Below are positions 8,151 to 20,402 of a stretch of DNA of 64,000 nucleotides, piece after piece. The translations under genes were made by a program, and so were the position numbers. The notes under the pieces are model-generated. The model did not search any database, had not been told where the DNA came from, and was given only the letters and a program-made list of their open reading frames with translations. The stretch's first letter is position 1; every line of letters begins with the position of its first letter. Origin of the DNA: Desulfobacterales bacterium HSG2. GTDB taxonomy: Bacteria > Desulfobacterota > Desulfobacteria > Desulfobacterales > 4be13. The stretch is from contig JAUCGI010000007.1 of the NCBI GenBank assembly GCA_030378035.1, positions 1 to 64,000 of the forward strand, written 5' to 3'.

Positions 8151-8194
8151 GCAATTATGGCTTTCGCTTCTGCTTTGTCTGCTGATATCTTTGC

Positions 8195-8735
<541 letters not shown>

Positions 8736-9059
8736 AATTTTTTCCAACCTGTGAGTTCCATTCCCCAAAACCCAAAAACTGTCAAAGGAGTTTTGAAATA
8801 AAATTTCAACCGTCAAAGGAGTGTTGAAATAAAATTTCAGCACTTCTCGTGAATACGCTTGAAGACCTTTCCAAAAAATCCAAGCTTTATTATCCGATTC
8901 CCAACAAAAGACTTGACATTAAGAAAAAAGTTGAATAGATATGAAATATTTGCTTTTCATGGCTCTTTGGCTATTCTGTTTAAACGTAAAAGTTAAACAG
9001 TATCGCTAATAAATTCAGGCATCTGGGCGTAAGGACGCCTGATGCCATAACAAAAAATC

Positions 9060-9193: not shown

Positions 9194-12100
9194 ATGAAAA
9201 ATCTGAACCCATTGTCCATCATCATCATGCTGGTCATGTCATTTGTGCTGATGTCGGGGACCATTCCCGAGGCATCAGATACATTGCCGGCCGGAGTTCC
9301 GTCAGAGCGGCATTCCGAATCTGACATCTTTTCCATCCCCGCGCCCTCTGGAACGGTTAAGATGGCGCGCACAAAGATGGAAATATCCACCAAACCCCAT
9401 GAATACCGCTCAGAGGTATTCACCCTGGATCATTCCCAAAGCATTCACGGGTTTTCCATAACCGGTGAATTCAGCCTCGTAAAGCGGCTTTCGAGCAATG
9501 ATCCGAATGCCTTTGTCCGGGTCGTTCTGCTTGCGGATGACGATCAGGAATATCTGGTATATCAGAAATTATCAGAGGAATTATCCGATCATGAGGCCGC
9601 GACATCGAAGATGATAACGATTGAAGCGGTCTGTGAAGAGACCTGTGTAATGCCCCAGGCGGTCAAACCGCTTTCTTTAAGACTGGAAGCAAGACACGCG
9701 GCAATAACAGTCAGCAGCATCTCATCCATTGACGCGCCGGCCTCAGGCGACCCTGATGAGCTGAGGCGGCAGCAGAATGCAGCAAAAATTCGTAAAATAA
9801 ACGCGCAGAATCCGGGCTGGATTGCCGGAGAGACCTCTGTTTCAAATCTGAGGTATGCCGAAAAAAAACGGCTGGTGAATCTGACCGAACCGGATGATGA
9901 ATTCAACCTGCACGGGTTTGAATATTATCGGGGAGGCATATTTGAGATCCGGTCAAAAAATTCTTCTGCCGATTTCGGTCAGAATTTGCTGGTGGATCAT
10001 TTTGACTGGAGAGACAGACACGGAGAGGACTGGACCACGCGCGTGCGTGAAACCGAACGGAATGACGACGCCGACCGGAGCACCTTTCCGGGAGGCGACT
10101 ACGCGTTTGCGTCTGCCGCGGCTTTGGAAGCTGTCACAAACCTTTATTTCAATCAGCACCTGAACCCGGATTTATCCGAACAGGACCTCATTTCCTGCGG
10201 GAATGATGACGATGCTGACAGCGTATATGGCTCGGAAGGCACCGCGCTTCTGCTATTTGAATATCTGACAGAGCATCCGGTTGTTGACGAAGCCTGTTTT
10301 CCTTACACCGAAAACATGGATCAGACAGCCTCTTATCCGCGTTGCGCCAAGTGCGACAATCCGGCCCTGACCATCGGGATCAGCGGAAGCATACCTTTTT
10401 ATACACGGGAAGGCCACGGTTTTCCCAGGTCGGAATATGTTTTAAAACGGCTGATTATCGAAAAAGGACCGGTTGCCGCTTCCATCCGGTTATCAGAAGG
10501 GCGTCACGCAATGGCCCTTGTGGGCTTTAAAAAAGACCCGGCCGACGGACGAACCGTCTGGATATTCAAAAACAGTTGGGGAAAATGCTGGGGCGCGGCA
10601 GATGACCCGTCAACCCACTGGGGCGAGTGGGAAAATTCCCAAACTTTGCAGGGAAAAGAATGCAATAACGGCTATGCCCACATCAAACTGAACATCACCG
10701 ATTTTACGATGGACACCACCGCGGCGGTATCCCCGGTAACAAGCTCCGATCCTGAACATCAGATCGCATGTATCGACAAGGACGGCGACGGATACTGCAA
10801 CTGGGGCGTTTCAAAATACAAACCCCGAACCTGTCCCGATTTCTGCAAACCGGAAAAGGACTGTGATGATTCAGATCCGGATTCAGGCCCCTTTGACGAG
10901 AACTCTGACTGTGTTGTAACCGACGATACTCAGAGATCGGCATCCTCGATCCTCAGTATCCCGCAGCCGGAGAATCCTCATGCAAGTTTCACTGTCACCC
11001 CTGACAACGGCCCGATCCCTCTGACTGTGACATTGGACGCATCCGATTCCCGGGATACTGACGGTGTAATTACCTCTTACGAATGGTCGGTTGACGGAGT
11101 TTACATCGGATGCGGAAATCCCTTTACCTACACCTTTTCCACTGAAGGGCAGTTCCTTGTCACCCTCACCGTCACAAATGATCAGAATCTGATCGCGGTT
11201 GACAAAAAAATGGTGACAACGACGGATTCCGATCTTGACACCGACGGCGATGGAATAAAGGATTCCTATGATAACTGCGTATTCGACAAGAATCCGAATC
11301 AGTCCGATCAGGACAGCGACGGCGCTGGGGATGCATGCGACGAATGTCCCTCAGATGCGGACAAGACCCAGATCGGGCCATGCGGCTGCTGTACGCCGGA
11401 CACGGATACGGACAGAGACGGAACCCCGGACTGTCTTGACAATTGCCCCACAGATCCAGGCAAAACAGACCCCGGAATATATGGCTGCGGCGTATCTGAT
11501 AAGGATACAGACAAAGACGGAACTCCCGATTCCAAGGATATCTGCTTTCATGATCCGGGAAAAACAGACCCCGGAATATGCGGCTGTAATGTACCTGATA
11601 CTGACTCGGACGGCGACGGAATCCTGGATTGTTTTGACAGATGCCCTGAAGATCCGAACAAAACCGAACCCGGAGCCTGTGGTTGCGGCATTTCGGATAT
11701 CGACTCTGAGAATGATGGAACTCCGGACTGTTCTGATTTGTGCCCCGATGATCCGGATAAACTCAAACCCGGAAGATGTGGCTGCGGCATCCCGGATACC
11801 GATACCGACAACGACGGAACCCCGGACTGCCTGGACAACTGCCCCGATAACCCGGAAAAGACGAATCCCGGTGTATGTGGCTGCGATATTGTCGATTCGG
11901 ACACTGATCTCGACGGGACCCCGGACTGCATGGATAACTGCCCCTGTGATCCCGTAAAAGTGACCCCCGGAGTCTGCGGCTGCGGTGTCCCGGATACCGA
12001 TACCGACGGTGACGGGACTCCCGATTGCAAGGATGTTTGTCCGAATGATCCGGATAAGACAGACCCCGGGTTGTGCGGCTGCGATATCCCGGATACCGAT

Positions 12101-15100
12101 AACTGCGGCATACCTGCCGAAGATGATTGTCCCTCGGATCCGCACAAGACCACACCCGGGATATGCGGATGCGGCCTCGCTGATACGGATACGGACGGGG
12201 ACGGCTCGCCCGACTGCATTGACAAATGCCCCGAGGATCCCGATAAGTTCGAACCCGGAGGCTGCGGCTGCGATATGCCGGATACTGACGCGGACGCCGA
12301 CGGAATGCCGGATTGCTTGGACAAATGCCTGAATAATCCCAAAACCGAACCCGGGATATGCGGCTGCGATATCCCTGATACGGACAATGACTTGGACGGA
12401 ATACCGGACTGTGTGGATAAATGCCCCTTTGATTTCAACAAAGTCGAACCTGCGGTATGCGGCTGCAATATGCCGGATGCTGACACGGACGGCGACGGAA
12501 TGCCGGAGTGTCTGGACAAATGCCCGGGAAATCCGAAGGTCGAACCGGGAGTATGCGGTTGCGGTCTCCCCGATACAGACAGCGACGGCGACGGCGCCCC
12601 GGACTGCATCGACAGATGCCCCTATGATACGGATAAGATCGAACCCGGCGGCTGCGGCTGCGGCGTATCTGACAGGGACAGGGACGGCGACGGAATGCCG
12701 GACTGCCTCGACAAATGCCCGGAGAATCCGAACAAGGTCGAGCCGGGAGCATGCGGTTGCGACGCTTCTGATGCGGACGGTGACAGGGATGGCGACGGCG
12801 TTCCGGATTGCAGTGACAACTGTTCTGACGATCCGAACAAGACGGTGCCGGGAATATGCGGCTGCGGCGTCGTCGATACGGATAGGGACGGCGACGGGAC
12901 GCCCGACTGCAATGACGGATGTCCTGATGATCCCGCAAAGACGGTGCCCGGAACATGCGGTTGCGGCGTCGCGGATACGGATAGCGACGGGGACGGCGTT
13001 CCGGAATGCAATGAAAACTGTCCGGGCGATCCGAACAAGACAGAACCGGGAATATGCGGCTGCGGCGTTTCTGATACGGACAAAGACAGTGACGGGACGC
13101 CCGACTGCAATGACGGATGCCCTGATGATCCTGCAAAGACATCGGCCGGACCATGCGGCTGCGGCGAGTCAGGCAGTGACAGTGACGGAGACGGCGTTCC
13201 GGACTGCAATGACAACTGTCCGAGCGATCCGAACAAAACTGAGCCGGGAGCATGCGGGTGCGGTGTGTCTGATGCGGACAGGGACGGTGACGGGACGCCC
13301 GACTGCGATGACGGATGTCCTGATGATCCCGCAAAGACTGCGCCCGGAACATGCGGGTGCGGCGTGTCAGATGCGGACAGGGACGGGGACGGTGTTCCGG
13401 AATGCGGTGATAACTGTCCGGGCGATCCGAACAAGACAGAGCCGGGAATATGCGGGTGCGGCGTGTCTGATGCGGACAGGGACGGTGACGGAACGCCCGA
13501 CTGTAATGACGGATGTCCTGATGATCCTGCAAAGACATCGGCCGGACCATGCGGCTGCGGTGAGTCAGGCAGTGACAGGGACGGCGACGGCGTTCCGGAC
13601 TGCAATGACAACTGTCCGAGCGATCCGAACAAGACAGCACCGGGAAAGTGCGGATGCGGCGTGTCTGATGCGGACAGGGACGGTGACGGGACGCCCGACT
13701 GTAATGACGGATGTCCGGATGATCCCGCAAAGACATCGGCCGGACCATGCGGCTGCGGCGAGTCAGGCAGTGACAGTGACGGCGACGGCGTTCCGGACTG
13801 CAATGACAACTGTCCGAGCGATCCGAACAAAACTGAGCCGGGAGCATGCGGATGCGGTGTGTCTGCTGCGGACAGGGACGGTGACGGGACGCCCGACTGT
13901 AATGACGGATGTCCTGATGATCCTGCAAAGACTGCACCCGGAACATGCGGTTGCGGCGTCGCGGATACGGACAGGGACGGCGACGGCATTCCGGAATGCG
14001 GTGATAACTGTCCGGGCGATCCGAACAAGACAGAGCCGGGAATATGCGGGTGCGGCGTGTCTGATGCGGACAGGGACGGTGACGGGACGCCCGACTGTAA
14101 TGACGGATGTCCTGATGATCCTGCAAAGACGACACCCGGAACTTGCGGTTGCGGCGTCGCGGATACGGACAGGGACGGTGACGGCGTTCCGGAATGCGGT
14201 GATAACTGTCCGGGCGATCCGAACAAGACAGAGCCGGGAATATGCGGCTGCGGCAAATCTGATATTGACAGGGACGGTGACGGGACGCCCGACTGTAATG
14301 ACGGATGTCCTGATGATCCTGCAAAGACGGTGCCCGGAACATGCGGTTGCGGCGTCGCGGATACGAACAGGGACGGGGACGGCGTTCCGGACTGCAATGA
14401 CAATTGTCCGAGCGATTCAAACAAGACGGTGCCGGGGCAGTGTGGCTGCGGTGTTTCTGATGCGGACAGGGATGGTGACGGGACGCCTGACTGCATTGAC
14501 CAATGCCCCGATGATCCCGCAAAAACAAGTCCCGGGACATGCGGCTGCGGCGAGGCAGGCGAAGACAGTGATGGAGACGGCATAGCGGATTGCAATGATA
14601 ACTGTCCGAGTGATCCGAACAAAACGGTAGCGGGACAGTGTGGTTGCGGCGTTTCTGATGTTGACAGCGACGGAGACGGCGTTCCCAACTGCGTCGACAA
14701 CTGTCCGAACCATCCGGGCAAGACCGACCCGGGGACATGCGGTTGCGGCGTCACGGATATAGACACGGACGGGGACGGAACTCCGGACTGCATTGACAAC
14801 TGCGACAGCGACCCCACCAAGACTGCTCCGGGGATATGCGGATGCGATTGCGGCGCGCCTGTCGCGGATGCGTGTCCGGCGGATACCGGCAAAACAGCCC
14901 CGGGGATATGCGGCTGCGGCATTCCTGATACTGACGCGGACGGTGACGGGACTCCCGACTGCATCGATAATTGCCCTTATGATCCGAGAAAGATTCAGCC
15001 GGGCGAATGCGGTTGCGAAATGTCTGATCTTGACAGGGACGGGGACGGAACTCCGGACTGTGCGGATAAGTGTCCAGATAATCCCACAAAGACCGATCCA

Positions 15101-16531
15101 GGAATATGCGGCTGTGATATTGCGGATACCGACTCTGACGGAGACGGATCGGCTGACTGTGTTGATATATGCCCCAACAATCCCGCCAGAGCCAATCCCG
15201 GAATATGCGGATGTGAGTGCGGCGATGATATATGTCCGGACGATCCTGTCAAGGTCGCGCCGGGGATATGCGGCTGCGGTTCGGAGGATACCGATTCGGA
15301 TAGTGACGGGGTGCCTGACTGTGTTGACAACTGCCCTTATGATTCCAAAAAGATTCAACCCGGGGGATGCGGCTGCGGGACACCTGACATGGACACCGAC
15401 GGCGACGGTATTCCGGACTGTCTGGATAAGTGTCCGAATAATCCGATCAAGGCGGAACCCGGAATATGCGGTTGCAATGTTGCGGATATTGACACGGACG
15501 GGGACGGAACCCCGGACTGTATCGACAACTGCCCCGACAATCCTGACAAAACAGATCCGGGAGTATGCGGCTGCGATTGCGGCGCTCCTGTCACGGACGC
15601 CTGCCCGGCGGATCCGTATAAGATCATTCCCGGGATATGCGGGTGCGGCGTCGCGGATACGGACAGTGACGGCGACGGTTCACCCGATTGTGTGGACAAA
15701 TGCCCGAATGATCCCTCAGATGCCGGGATGTGCGGTTGCGACGATCCGGAAAAAGACAATGACGGTGACGGAACCCCGGATTGTCTGGATAATTGTCCGA
15801 ATGATCCGGCTAAGACTGAACTGGGGATATGCGGCTGCGGCGTATCCGATGTTGACAGTGACAGTGACGGCACGCCCGACTGCATGGACAGGTGTCCGAG
15901 CGACCCTGCCAAAACCGACCCCGGTGAATGCGGCTGCGGCATGTCTGACGCGAATACCGACGGAGACGGGTCACCCGACTGTACGGATAACTGTCCCGAC
16001 GACCCCACAAAATTCGACCCCGGAAAATGCGGCTGCGGCGTATCTGAGACAGACAGCGACGGCGACCGCATACCCGACTGTGTGGATGACTGTCCGGACG
16101 ATCCTGAAAAGAGCGATCCCGGAGAGTGCGGCTGCGGCGATTCCGAGGCGGACAGCGACAGAGACGGAACCCCGGACTGTGTGGATGAATGTCCCGTCGA
16201 TCCAGCCAAAACCGAGCCCGGAGAATGCGGCTGCGGTGCCGCTGATGTGGATGGGGACGGGACCCCGGACTGTATCGATGGCTGTCCCCGCGATTCCACC
16301 AAAACCAGACCGGGAGAATGCGGCTGCGGCGTATCTGACATCGACAGTGACAATGACGGCGAAGCCGATTGCATTGACATGGCTCTGAGCGATTCAAAAA
16401 AGATTGATCTTGAATCAGCAGATTCTGTTACGAGTGATAATCCTGGTGAATCCGGCAATGACGGAGATGGAGGAGATGGAGGAGACAGCTCAGGCTCCTG
16501 TTTTATCTCTGTCGCGGCTGAGGGGTTTTAG
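9194..16531 (+). CDS. giant secreted protein: papain-like pseudopeptidase, PKD, ~52 TSP3-type repeats
   Basis: A 2,445-residue exported protein. The start is the ATG at 9194 with AAGGA seven bases upstream; upstream in-frame codons lie in a miniature element. After the signal peptide is a C1 papain-like domain (about 275-490), then a DxDGDGY...DCDDSDP metal-binding motif of MopE type (about 525-575), a PKD domain (about 595-680), and about 52 repeats, mostly 33 residues, of pattern DxDxDGDGTPDCxDxCPxDPxKTxPGxCGCG. These resemble thrombospondin type 3 calcium-binding repeats with two extra Cys pairs. The papain site looks dead: Cys is D302 and the oxyanion Gln is Ser, although H438 and N460 remain. 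The C-terminus, CFISVAAEGF, resembles the beginning of a CFI-box sorting region cut short. A surface adhesin or matrix protein is likely. Confidence 0.85.
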   Translation: MKNLNPLSIIIMLVMSFVLMSGTIPEASDTLPAGVPSERHSESDIFSIPAPSGTVKMARTKMEISTKPHEYRSEVFTLDHSQSIHGFSITGEFSLVKRLSSNDPNAFVRVVLLADDDQEYLVYQKLSEELSDHEAATSKMITIEAVCEETCVMPQAVKPLSLRLEARHAAITVSSISSIDAPASGDPDELRRQQNAAKIRKINAQNPGWIAGETSVSNLRYAEKKRLVNLTEPDDEFNLHGFEYYRGGIFEIRSKNSSADFGQNLLVDHFDWRDRHGEDWTTRVRETERNDDADRSTFPGGDYAFASAAALEAVTNLYFNQHLNPDLSEQDLISCGNDDDADSVYGSEGTALLLFEYLTEHPVVDEACFPYTENMDQTASYPRCAKCDNPALTIGISGSIPFYTREGHGFPRSEYVLKRLIIEKGPVAASIRLSEGRHAMALVGFKKDPADGRTVWIFKNSWGKCWGAADDPSTHWGEWENSQTLQGKECNNGYAHIKLNITDFTMDTTAAVSPVTSSDPEHQIACIDKDGDGYCNWGVSKYKPRTCPDFCKPEKDCDDSDPDSGPFDENSDCVVTDDTQRSASSILSIPQPENPHASFTVTPDNGPIPLTVTLDASDSRDTDGVITSYEWSVDGVYIGCGNPFTYTFSTEGQFLVTLTVTNDQNLIAVDKKMVTTTDSDLDTDGDGIKDSYDNCVFDKNPNQSDQDSDGAGDACDECPSDADKTQIGPCGCCTPDTDTDRDGTPDCLDNCPTDPGKTDPGIYGCGVSDKDTDKDGTPDSKDICFHDPGKTDPGICGCNVPDTDSDGDGILDCFDRCPEDPNKTEPGACGCGISDIDSENDGTPDCSDLCPDDPDKLKPGRCGCGIPDTDTDNDGTPDCLDNCPDNPEKTNPGVCGCDIVDSDTDLDGTPDCMDNCPCDPVKVTPGVCGCGVPDTDTDGDGTPDCKDVCPNDPDKTDPGLCGCDIPDTDNCGIPAEDDCPSDPHKTTPGICGCGLADTDTDGDGSPDCIDKCPEDPDKFEPGGCGCDMPDTDADADGMPDCLDKCLNNPKTEPGICGCDIPDTDNDLDGIPDCVDKCPFDFNKVEPAVCGCNMPDADTDGDGMPECLDKCPGNPKVEPGVCGCGLPDTDSDGDGAPDCIDRCPYDTDKIEPGGCGCGVSDRDRDGDGMPDCLDKCPENPNKVEPGACGCDASDADGDRDGDGVPDCSDNCSDDPNKTVPGICGCGVVDTDRDGDGTPDCNDGCPDDPAKTVPGTCGCGVADTDSDGDGVPECNENCPGDPNKTEPGICGCGVSDTDKDSDGTPDCNDGCPDDPAKTSAGPCGCGESGSDSDGDGVPDCNDNCPSDPNKTEPGACGCGVSDADRDGDGTPDCDDGCPDDPAKTAPGTCGCGVSDADRDGDGVPECGDNCPGDPNKTEPGICGCGVSDADRDGDGTPDCNDGCPDDPAKTSAGPCGCGESGSDRDGDGVPDCNDNCPSDPNKTAPGKCGCGVSDADRDGDGTPDCNDGCPDDPAKTSAGPCGCGESGSDSDGDGVPDCNDNCPSDPNKTEPGACGCGVSAADRDGDGTPDCNDGCPDDPAKTAPGTCGCGVADTDRDGDGIPECGDNCPGDPNKTEPGICGCGVSDADRDGDGTPDCNDGCPDDPAKTTPGTCGCGVADTDRDGDGVPECGDNCPGDPNKTEPGICGCGKSDIDRDGDGTPDCNDGCPDDPAKTVPGTCGCGVADTNRDGDGVPDCNDNCPSDSNKTVPGQCGCGVSDADRDGDGTPDCIDQCPDDPAKTSPGTCGCGEAGEDSDGDGIADCNDNCPSDPNKTVAGQCGCGVSDVDSDGDGVPNCVDNCPNHPGKTDPGTCGCGVTDIDTDGDGTPDCIDNCDSDPTKTAPGICGCDCGAPVADACPADTGKTAPGICGCGIPDTDADGDGTPDCIDNCPYDPRKIQPGECGCEMSDLDRDGDGTPDCADKCPDNPTKTDPGICGCDIADTDSDGDGSADCVDICPNNPARANPGICGCECGDDICPDDPVKVAPGICGCGSEDTDSDSDGVPDCVDNCPYDSKKIQPGGCGCGTPDMDTDGDGIPDCLDKCPNNPIKAEPGICGCNVADIDTDGDGTPDCIDNCPDNPDKTDPGVCGCDCGAPVTDACPADPYKIIPGICGCGVADTDSDGDGSPDCVDKCPNDPSDAGMCGCDDPEKDNDGDGTPDCLDNCPNDPAKTELGICGCGVSDVDSDSDGTPDCMDRCPSDPAKTDPGECGCGMSDANTDGDGSPDCTDNCPDDPTKFDPGKCGCGVSETDSDGDRIPDCVDDCPDDPEKSDPGECGCGDSEADSDRDGTPDCVDECPVDPAKTEPGECGCGAADVDGDGTPDCIDGCPRDSTKTRPGECGCGVSDIDSDNDGEADCIDMALSDSKKIDLESADSVTSDNPGESGNDGDGGDGGDSSGSCFISVAAEGF
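11226..16410 (+). repeat. 99-bp coding repeat array with 198-bp higher-order period
   Basis: This is the DNA of the TSP3-type repeats. Units are mostly 99 bp. In the middle (about 12.8-14.6 kb) they alternate between a DGTPDCNDGCPDDPAKT type and a DGVPxCxDNCPxDPNKT type, giving a 198-bp period with several almost identical pairs. That is the mark of recent unequal crossing-over or gene conversion. Outer units are more diverged, and three or four near 14.85, 15.2 and 15.6 kb are shortened. Confidence 0.9.
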
Positions 16532-16543
16532 GGCCGGGGATTT

Positions 16544-16618
16544 ATACAGGGATTTCACATAAGAAGGGATTGCGGCCGAGAGTCCCGGAAAATCCTTTCT
16601 TATGTGGAATCCTTGTAG
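16544..16618. mobile_element. miniature palindromic element family C, copy 1
   Basis: The ends are TACAGGGATTTCACATAAG and a near inverted copy ending CTTGTAG, with an internal GGATTGCGGCCGAGAGTCCC. It is shorter than the copies at 16754 and 17148 and begins 12 bp after the stop codon of the giant protein. Confidence 0.75.
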
Positions 16619-16639
16619 TTATCTCGGCTACCAATCATA

Positions 16640-16745
16640 AATACCTGGCCATAAGTTTTTTGGCATTTTATATCTCACACAAAGGCACAAAGACACAAAG
16701 AAAGGCACAAAGGTGAAAACAAAAGAATTTATGGACAGGTACTTA
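16640..16745. mobile_element. miniature element family B, copy 1
   Basis: The ends are TACCTGGCCATAAGTT and AATTTATGGACAGGTA, an almost perfect inverted pair. The core is a TTTTATATCTCACACAAAGG segment and repeated GGCACAAAG. The core is shared with family A, but the ends are different. Other copies lie at 21743, 59883 and, eroded, at 16874, 22026 and about 52020. Confidence 0.8.
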
Positions 16746-16753
16746 CGACACAA

Positions 16754-16848
16754 CTACAGGGATTCCGCATAAGAAAGGATTGCGGCCGAGAGTCCCGGAA
16801 AATCCTTTTCTTATGCGGAATCCCTCTAATTATGTGAAATCCCTGTAG
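16754..16848. mobile_element. miniature palindromic element family C, copy 2
   Basis: CTACAGGGATTCCGCATAAG begins the element and its inverted partner ends CCCTGTAG. It contains GGATTGCGGCCGAGAGTCCC and, towards the right end, two tandem forms of the inverted arm (TTATGCGGAATCCC and TTATGTGAAATCCC). Confidence 0.8.
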
Positions 16849-16973
16849 TTAATCAGACCGAAGTGGGTGGGCGTTTTGGCATTTTATATCTCACACAAAG
16901 GCACAAAGGCACAAAGAAAGGCACAAAGGTGAAAACAAAAGAATTTATGGCCAGGTACTTACGACACAACTAC

Positions 16974-17146
16974 TGCCTGACCAAATAAGTTTTGACGGGT
17001 GATTTTACATATCCGGCCGGCCGCTGTTCCGTGTCGCTGAGCGGGTTCTCATTTTTCAGCACCGGAAATGAGAAATGCGCGGGCGGAAACGGGCGCGGCT
17101 GATTCCGACCGCATGGGCTACCCGTCAAAACTTATTTGGTCAGGTA
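16974..17146. mobile_element. miniature element family D with long perfect terminal inverted repeats
   Basis: About 170 bp. The inner 25 bases of each end, CCTGACCAAATAAGTTTTG onward, are perfectly inverted. The interior is GC-rich and does not code. The paralogous position at 16751-16760 lacks the insert, giving an unoccupied reference site. The flanks are consistent with a short TAC target duplication. Confidence 0.85.
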
Positions 17147-17147
17147 T

Positions 17148-17241
17148 TACAGGGATTCCGCATAAGAAAGGATTGCGGCCGAGAGTCCCGGAAAATCCTT
17201 TTCTTATGCGGAATCCCTCTAATTATGTGAAATCCCTGTAG
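17148..17241. mobile_element. miniature palindromic element family C, copy 3
   Basis: Almost identical to copy 2 because it lies in the second copy of the 217-bp duplication. It ends 25 bp before the start codon of the histidine kinase, so it forms part of the 5' region. Confidence 0.8.
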
Positions 17242-17265
17242 TTAATCAGACCGAAGGGGGTGGGC

Positions 17266-19865: not shown

Positions 19866-20402
19866 ATGAAAAATGAAAAATCACCTTACAACATCCGCAT
19901 CGGGGTTGTGCCTGTGGGAGAAGTTCCTGAGATTGCACCGAAAGTTGTCGCTGCCCATTTTGTCGGTTATCTCAATCTTTCCACAGATATTTTTCCTCCT
20001 CTGGAACTTCCCGGATATGCTTTTGATAAAAGGCGGTCTCAATACGATGCCGGTCTGATTATCAAATCCTTTGAGTCCATGCAGTTCGACAATTGTGACA
20101 AGGTGATCGGGATTCTTGACGTTGATCTCTTTGTTCCCCTTTTCACCCATGTCTTTGGTGAAGCAAGGCTGGGCGGCAAATGTGCGCTGATCTCCCTGTT
20201 CAGAATGGAGAAAAATCCGGAGAGGGCGGCAAAAACGGCCCTCCATGAATTCGGTCATCTTTGCGATCTTCAGCATTGCACGGATAAGAACTGCCTGATG
20301 CACTTCTCCAAAGGACTTGAGGAACTGGACAGTATCCCTCTCTGTTTTTGCAGATACTGTTCTGCATATCTTCGGGACGCTTTTTGTCGCCTGAGCCTCT
20401 GA
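19866..20402 (+). CDS. archaemetzincin-like zinc metalloprotease
   Basis: A 178-residue protein with the archaemetzincin zinc signature: H127-E-F-G-H131, H137, followed by C-x4-C-L-M and a final CRYC. The two Cys pairs fit the structural zinc site of the family. The Gly normally found in HExxHxxGxxH is Asp (HEFGHLCDLQH), a change at a turn position that may affect activity. No signal peptide is seen, so it is probably cytoplasmic. It lies 30 bp after the response regulator and could be the last gene of that operon. The Shine-Dalgarno site is weak. The substrate of bacterial archaemetzincins is not known to me. Confidence 0.8.
   Translation: MKNEKSPYNIRIGVVPVGEVPEIAPKVVAAHFVGYLNLSTDIFPPLELPGYAFDKRRSQYDAGLIIKSFESMQFDNCDKVIGILDVDLFVPLFTHVFGEARLGGKCALISLFRMEKNPERAAKTALHEFGHLCDLQHCTDKNCLMHFSKGLEELDSIPLCFCRYCSAYLRDAFCRLSL

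Follow-up and report, generated by a model that had tools for sequence, protein, structure and literature searches.

A papain-family (C1) pseudopeptidase candidate with Asp at the nucleophile position on a giant TSP3-type repeat protein of a Desulfobacterales bacterium

Most known pseudoproteases with the papain fold come from eukaryotes and have Ser at the nucleophile position; TINAG is a further example of a C1 pseudoprotease. In the serine-type SERA proteins of Plasmodium (PMC7132891) and in the SMIPP-C proteins of the scabies mite (PMC5956821) the papain fold is present and the nucleophile is replaced by Ser, and both groups are kept and expressed for non-proteolytic roles. As to thrombospondin type 3 (TSP3) repeats in bacteria, calcium binding by those of OmpA was reported to depend on disulphides (Dai et al. 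2017, cited in PMC12045341). Our literature search found no Asp-type papain pseudoprotease.

The protein described here is a candidate variant of this known pseudoprotease kind, with Asp at the nucleophile. It is encoded in the window, i.e. the whole stretch of 64,000 nucleotides from Desulfobacterales bacterium HSG2 that was analysed, by a single intact ORF on the plus strand (9194..16531; 2,445 aa, stop codon included), the 7.3-kb frame being open throughout. The calculated pI of the product without its first 30 residues is about 4.05. The features listed below are all on the same strand. A probable Sec signal peptide (MKNLNPLSIIIMLVMSFVLMSGT..., 9194..9277), read from the sequence without a predictor, is followed by a beta-rich N-terminal module common to the family members (residues 42-180, 9317..9733), by a cathepsin-type propeptide region defined by family conservation and Foldseek (residues 186-262, 9749..9979, motif NAQNPGWIAGETSVSNL) and by the papain-family (C1) domain (residues 263-510, 9980..10723). 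Behind it are located a family-wide Cys/Asp-rich module (residues 520-580, CIDKDGDGYCNWG...CPDFCKPEKDCDDSD, 10751..10933), a PKD domain (residues 595-668, 10976..11197; PF18911, 36.7 bits) and a canonical TSP3-like unit recognised from the sequence and by TSP_3 (DTDGDGIKDSYDNC...NPNQSDQDSDGAGDACD, 11222..11389), which leads into an array of 33-residue TSP3-type units (11390..16327). The N-terminal and the Cys/Asp-rich modules have no Pfam entry. Long ORFs of up to 780 aa are also present in the other frames and on the opposite strand over the array, which is a mechanical consequence of a repeat period divisible by three.

The C1 domain was detected with Pfam (Peptidase_C1, PF00112, residues 299-468; E 1.9e-14, 54.7 bits, cut-off 20.7) and the papain fold was predicted with confidence by AlphaFold2 (pTM 0.85, 44 family sequences in the alignment). 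When the model was used in Foldseek, cathepsin C was found first, then procathepsins L, B and S, with E values between 1e-13 and 1e-10; the alignments extended over about 360 columns for the procathepsins as opposed to about 275 for the mature cathepsins. Among the features of an active C1A peptidase, the fold, the catalytic His (H438, 10505..10507) and the catalytic Asn (N460 in KNSWG, 10571..10573) are kept, while the catalytic Cys and the oxyanion-hole Gln are missing. The papain Cys25 position is occupied by D302 (GAC, 10097..10099), which is residue 261 of the model and the first residue of its central helix. The first-pass annotation had recognised the C1 fold with D302, H438 and N460 and had proposed structure prediction as a check, and both the residue numbers and the model agree with it. 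It had also read the oxyanion Gln as replaced by Ser; the loss of Gln holds, as there is none anywhere in residues 271-311, but the aligned residue could be either T287 or S296, because of an insertion of 8-9 residues at this place which is absent in the homologues. This acidic insertion in the active-site loop (approximately residues 288-297, 10055..10084) was modelled at pLDDT below 50, and the local active-site geometry of the model is unreliable. Both Cys of the conserved Cys22-Cys63 disulphide pair are missing, too. The protein is thus a C1 homologue which has lost catalytic residues in an otherwise intact and conserved gene, as expected of a C1 pseudopeptidase, and its status as a real pseudopeptidase candidate on a giant, probably exported TSP3-type protein is well supported, in agreement with the initial proposal; the head is presumably inactive.

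The core of the protein, comprising the N-terminal module, the propeptide, the C1 domain and the Cys/Asp-rich module, belongs to a large family without a Pfam name of its own, which was gathered in three search rounds. Its members originate from Desulfonema magnum, other Desulfobacterales, Thiotrichaceae (Thiomargarita, Thioploca), Bacteroidota, Patescibacteria, Nanoarchaeota and others; no relative was detected in the viral contigs searched with the core profile or in a plasmid search. Of the 69 rows in the active-site table, 66 were counted as readable family members; the other three are a fragment in which the site is missing, and L095 and L102, two Cys-bearing C1 proteins that came from the search of the order and are more distant. 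The nucleophile is Cys in 63 of the 66, Asp in two and Ser in one. The three exceptions are the window protein (Asp), a protein from a Thiotrichaceae MAG (L023; Asp, QTCKNDWAF), a family of which the sampling was thin, and a protein from the Desulfobacterales MAG GMC2_bin_2 (L020; Ser, QNLCGSSWVF), which is of the same family as the window genome. The Cys is kept in the D. magnum orthologue (QGKCGSCYTF). When 390 genomes of the order were surveyed for C1 domains, within the sequences retrieved, Cys was present in 79 of 85 distinct domains and Asp (2), Ser (2), Thr (1) or Ala (1) in the rest, mostly helix-capping residues. The two Asp domains of this survey are those of the window protein and of L013, which belongs to another C1 subfamily (QGDCAADWAF). 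All three Asp proteins use the codon GAC, two base changes away from a Cys codon (TGY). Conservation of Cys-to-Asp as a trait of the family, a point on which the first-pass annotation had asked for a homologue search, is therefore not supported, since Cys prevails and the changes are separate. Intact Cys in every homologue would, according to the same annotation, have marked the change as a simple mutation or sequence error; L020 and L023 have Ser and Asp, respectively, and Asp is found in the wider order in the non-orthologous L013 as well. The L013 protein (genome G027; also L117 and L173) has a PKD-like C-terminal part and one extra residue in the loop around its His (GHLAVLVTGW).

In a tree of 62 rows the window protein is sister to the D. 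magnum orthologue with a support of 99/89. A tree of 17 rows was calculated from the longer core, which includes the N-terminal module (547 columns, catalytic loop removed). Here the window protein groups with L019 (D. magnum) and L020 (97/95), the Asp-bearing L023 pairs with the Cys-bearing L022 (95/95), and three separate changes of the nucleophile are required. A single clade of the two Asp proteins was rejected (p-AU 0.0006), and so was a single clade of all three non-Cys proteins (p-AU 1.4e-5). When a shorter alignment without the N-terminal module was used, the joint Asp clade was only borderline rejected (p 0.054), thus the rejection leans on this module. Separate loss of the Cys in the window protein, in L020 and in L023 is supported by the tree.

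The array itself falls within the definition of TSP_3 (PF02412), which matched in 22 stretches (E 5.6e-45, 151.2 bits, cut-off 25). It contains 52 CGC motifs, one of them in the form of YGC, with a period of 33 residues in most units. Each unit has four Cys, arranged as C-x3-C (positions 15 and 19) and C-G-C (31 and 33), and Asp at positions 4, 6, 8, 10, 14 and 17; the CxxC-like repeat ends described initially have to be corrected to CX3C plus CXC. Asp10, Cys19, Gly32 and Cys33 are invariant in the 42 full-length units, Cys15, Cys31, Asp8, Asp17 and Gly11 are kept in 41 of these, and the Asp and Cys ligand positions taken together in 34-42. Since these positions are kept, and the fourfold third positions of the shared residues agree in only 40% over all unit pairs, most of the array is old and appears to be under selection on the protein. 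Its younger core (12782..14679) is a 198-bp two-unit higher-order repeat with 9.6 copies and 85% matches. The ligand positions for calcium are conserved, and the repeats would probably bind it. A PDB sequence search with the repeats gave no match, and an AlphaFold2 model of four units was unusable (pLDDT 43).

The CGC-type unit was found in all five genomes of the family to which the window genome belongs, as well as in 6 other genomes among the 197 sampled from the phylum (E 1e-15). In the relatives where the carriers were read it is attached to unrelated heads, and the C1-core orthologues read have no TSP3 array; the repeat is a shuffled module. L143 (window genome, C210) and L144 (D. magnum) form a conserved pair, each protein being about 1,300 aa long, in which the same CGC-type TSP3 array is flanked by an N-terminal module on one side and by Ig/carboxypeptidase-regulatory-like domains on the other. 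A giant ORF of 2,707 aa in the window genome (L146, C45:60000-71708, minus strand), close to the end of its contig, carries carboxypeptidase-regulatory-like repeats and DTDGDGTGNNADTDDDND calcium-type repeats.

The probable Sec signal peptide suggests that the protein is exported. Its C-terminal GSCFISVAAEGF (16493..16528) is a CFI-type end. In the D. magnum orthologue the same CFI motif is followed by a transmembrane stretch and a basic tail, whereas the window protein stops at the motif. The complete CFI-type tail with all three parts is present in D. magnum and in another protein of the window genome, and the NCBIfam tail models gave no match to the window protein. Surface anchoring is uncertain because the sorting-like tail is cut short.

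No conserved gene neighbourhood was seen between the window and D. magnum. The neighbours in the window are an MCP, an ATPase, a HAD protein and a two-component pair, while those in D. magnum include ORFs reading as flavoprotein and iron-sulphur subunits of the fumarate-reductase/succinate-dehydrogenase type. The region upstream of the gene (8157-8843) is composed of GCTCCG hexamer runs together with 92-bp and 37-bp tandem repeats; when translated, one strand gives runs of Pro-Ala and the other runs of Arg-Ser, and the region probably contains no gene. Downstream (16540-17260) there are recurring, partly palindromic blocks of about 80-100 bp (TACAGGGATTCCGCATAAGAAAGGATTGCGGCCGAGAGTCCCGGAAAATCC..., CACAAAGGCACAAAGAAAGGCACAAAGGTGAAAAC). 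A small M54 (archaemetzincin-type) metallopeptidase is encoded at 19866-20399; the genes immediately upstream of it code for a histidine kinase and a sigma-54 response regulator. The D. magnum orthologue is interrupted by an in-frame TAG, which lies in a short segment (L015:8130-8220, minus strand) whose ends are inverted (AGTGTTCTAAAA ... TTTTAGAACACC). This segment resembles a small insertion element and separates the Ig/cadherin-like part from the C1 core.

The explanation we favour, with a probability of roughly 0.6, is that the protein is an extracellular adhesin or scaffold, in which a non-proteolytic papain-fold head is carried by a long, probably calcium-stiffened and disulphide-bonded stalk. 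It would be secreted and belong to the cell surface or the matrix, in an organism related to D. magnum. The head would be a papain-fold domain without proteolytic activity, with the propeptide and the family-specific Cys/Asp-rich module retained, and the body an acidic stalk of about 1,650 residues, built of four-Cys TSP3-type repeats which probably bind calcium and would be braced by disulphides. The Asp which replaces the Cys at the N-terminus of the central helix could pair its negative charge with His438 and cap the helix, and the fold would stay stable without the thiolate while catalysis is removed. Helix capping is also a property of the other common replacements, Ser and Thr. Such a head may serve as a rigid binding or docking unit. 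A binding module, as had been suggested at first, is possible, but the propeptide, which is expected to cover the cleft, is still encoded and self-cleavage is unavailable. Since the propeptide is retained and its self-removal is impossible, the binding of peptides in an open cleft is no more likely than a structural or docking role.

The head could alternatively be a decaying former protease, a C1 passenger under relaxed selection that is kept only through its fusion to a useful stalk. This reading, which we regard as unlikely, draws on the long terminal branch of the window protein (0.53-0.64, the lower value being the one set against 0.13 for the D. magnum orthologue), on the loss of Cys in other ways in neighbouring orthologues and on the in-frame TAG that interrupts the D. 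magnum gene. The relative-rate counts indicate acceleration in most segments, although they are mixed, extend beyond the C1 domain with some of the outgroups and are not taken as proof of relaxed or purifying selection. Decay is opposed by the intact 7.3-kb frame and by the retention of 53 of the 57 near-invariant positions (at least 85% conserved in the Cys-bearing members), among them the His, the Asn, KNSWG, the propeptide motif and the Cys/Asp-rich module. The four changed positions, namely the residue at the Gln position, C302, C346 (Cys63) and G348 (Gly65), all surround the active site, the losses being concentrated in the catalytic loop; Asp needs two base changes, and it recurred. With only four active-site-centred changes in 57 positions, the domain would therefore have been retained for its fold with catalysis removed, rather than left to decay, and this suggests that a kept fold outweighs decay despite the long branch and the acceleration.

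The remaining explanations are much less probable. The dead domain might regulate or inhibit by titrating the substrates, inhibitors or propeptides of the two further C1 proteins of the window genome, both of which have an intact QGxCGSCWAF. Pseudoproteases with regulatory roles have been described (Reynolds and Fischer 2015, as cited in PMC5956821), but those two proteins belong to other subfamilies with different flanking domains, genomic linkage was not seen, and we consider such a role quite improbable. Still less probable is the altered hydrolase which the first-pass annotation had offered as an option, with Asp302 as nucleophile or general base together with His438 and Asn460. Asp, His and Asn are indeed all at catalytic positions, and Asp recurs in separate lineages. 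However, the oxyanion Gln, the Cys22-Cys63 pair and the loop geometry have been lost together, so that an Asp-nucleophile hydrolase is unsupported; Gly65 is lost and the loop remodelled as well, the literature search gave no precedent, and an ion pair or a helix cap is the simpler reading of an Asp beside a His. The least probable of all is that the active site reflects an error of sequencing or assembly. The assembly is fragmented and 72.6% complete, but the two base changes, the in-frame insertion, the loss of Cys63 and the open frame are all consistent with each other, and GAC occurs in an unrelated assembly (L023), too.

A wider proposal can be put forward, though tentatively and with more doubt than confidence: Cys-to-Asp may be a favoured, repeatable route by which a secreted bacterial C1 protease turns into a non-cutting binding or scaffold domain. 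The carboxylate would replace the thiolate in the ion pair with the His, cap the central helix and preserve the cleft, with separate origins in Desulfococcaceae, in Thiotrichaceae and in a second C1 subfamily of the same order. Because the numbers are small, the preference for Asp is a suggestion only.

Compared with the known systems, the stalk shares the calcium-type motif DxDxDGDGxxDxxDNCP with thrombospondin type 3 repeats (PF02412), which are also found in bacterial OmpA and TraB. It differs from standard TSP3 in that each unit has 33 residues, four Cys and an additional C-G-C, and in the number of units (52). The Cys-containing ends do set the array apart, as had been proposed, but disulphide-dependent calcium-binding TSP3 repeats were already described from bacteria. 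MtsC, a MYXO-CTERM protein named for cell-cell cohesion (NCBIfam NF047638), likewise has a TSP3-type array on an exported protein; the array scored far below the cut-off of its model (73.7 bits against 350), and we know of no C1 head in MtsC.

The orthologous cores of D. magnum (L019), GMC2_bin_2 (L020) and the Thiotrichaceae (L021-L025) are 44-59% identical and have the same N-terminal module, propeptide, C1 domain and Cys/Asp-rich module, often a PKD domain and in most cases the Cys. In the Desulfobacterales orthologues the N-terminal repeats are cadherin- or Ig-like and the linkers rich in Thr; a TSP3 array occurs in none of those read. A widespread conserved core, whose flanking modules have no Pfam entry, is hereby defined in Bacteroidota, sulphur bacteria, Patescibacteria and DPANN archaea. 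The main interest lies in the comparative series: a bacterial family with Cys, Ser or Asp at one site, and with tree-supported separate losses, offers a natural series for the change from a secreted protease to a structural or binding protein and for a preference for Asp. In comparison with the papain family (MEROPS C1A, PF00112), in which dipeptidyl peptidase I and procathepsins L, B and S are the nearest structures, the window protein shares the fold, the propeptide region, the catalytic His and Asn, the KNSWG motif and a Cys56-Cys95-type pair; it lacks the catalytic Cys, the oxyanion Gln and the Cys22-Cys63 pair, and adds the loop insertion of 8-9 residues. Whereas SERA and SMIPP-C are eukaryotic proteins with Ser at the nucleophile, the window protein is bacterial, has Asp at this site and carries the domain on a giant repeat stalk.
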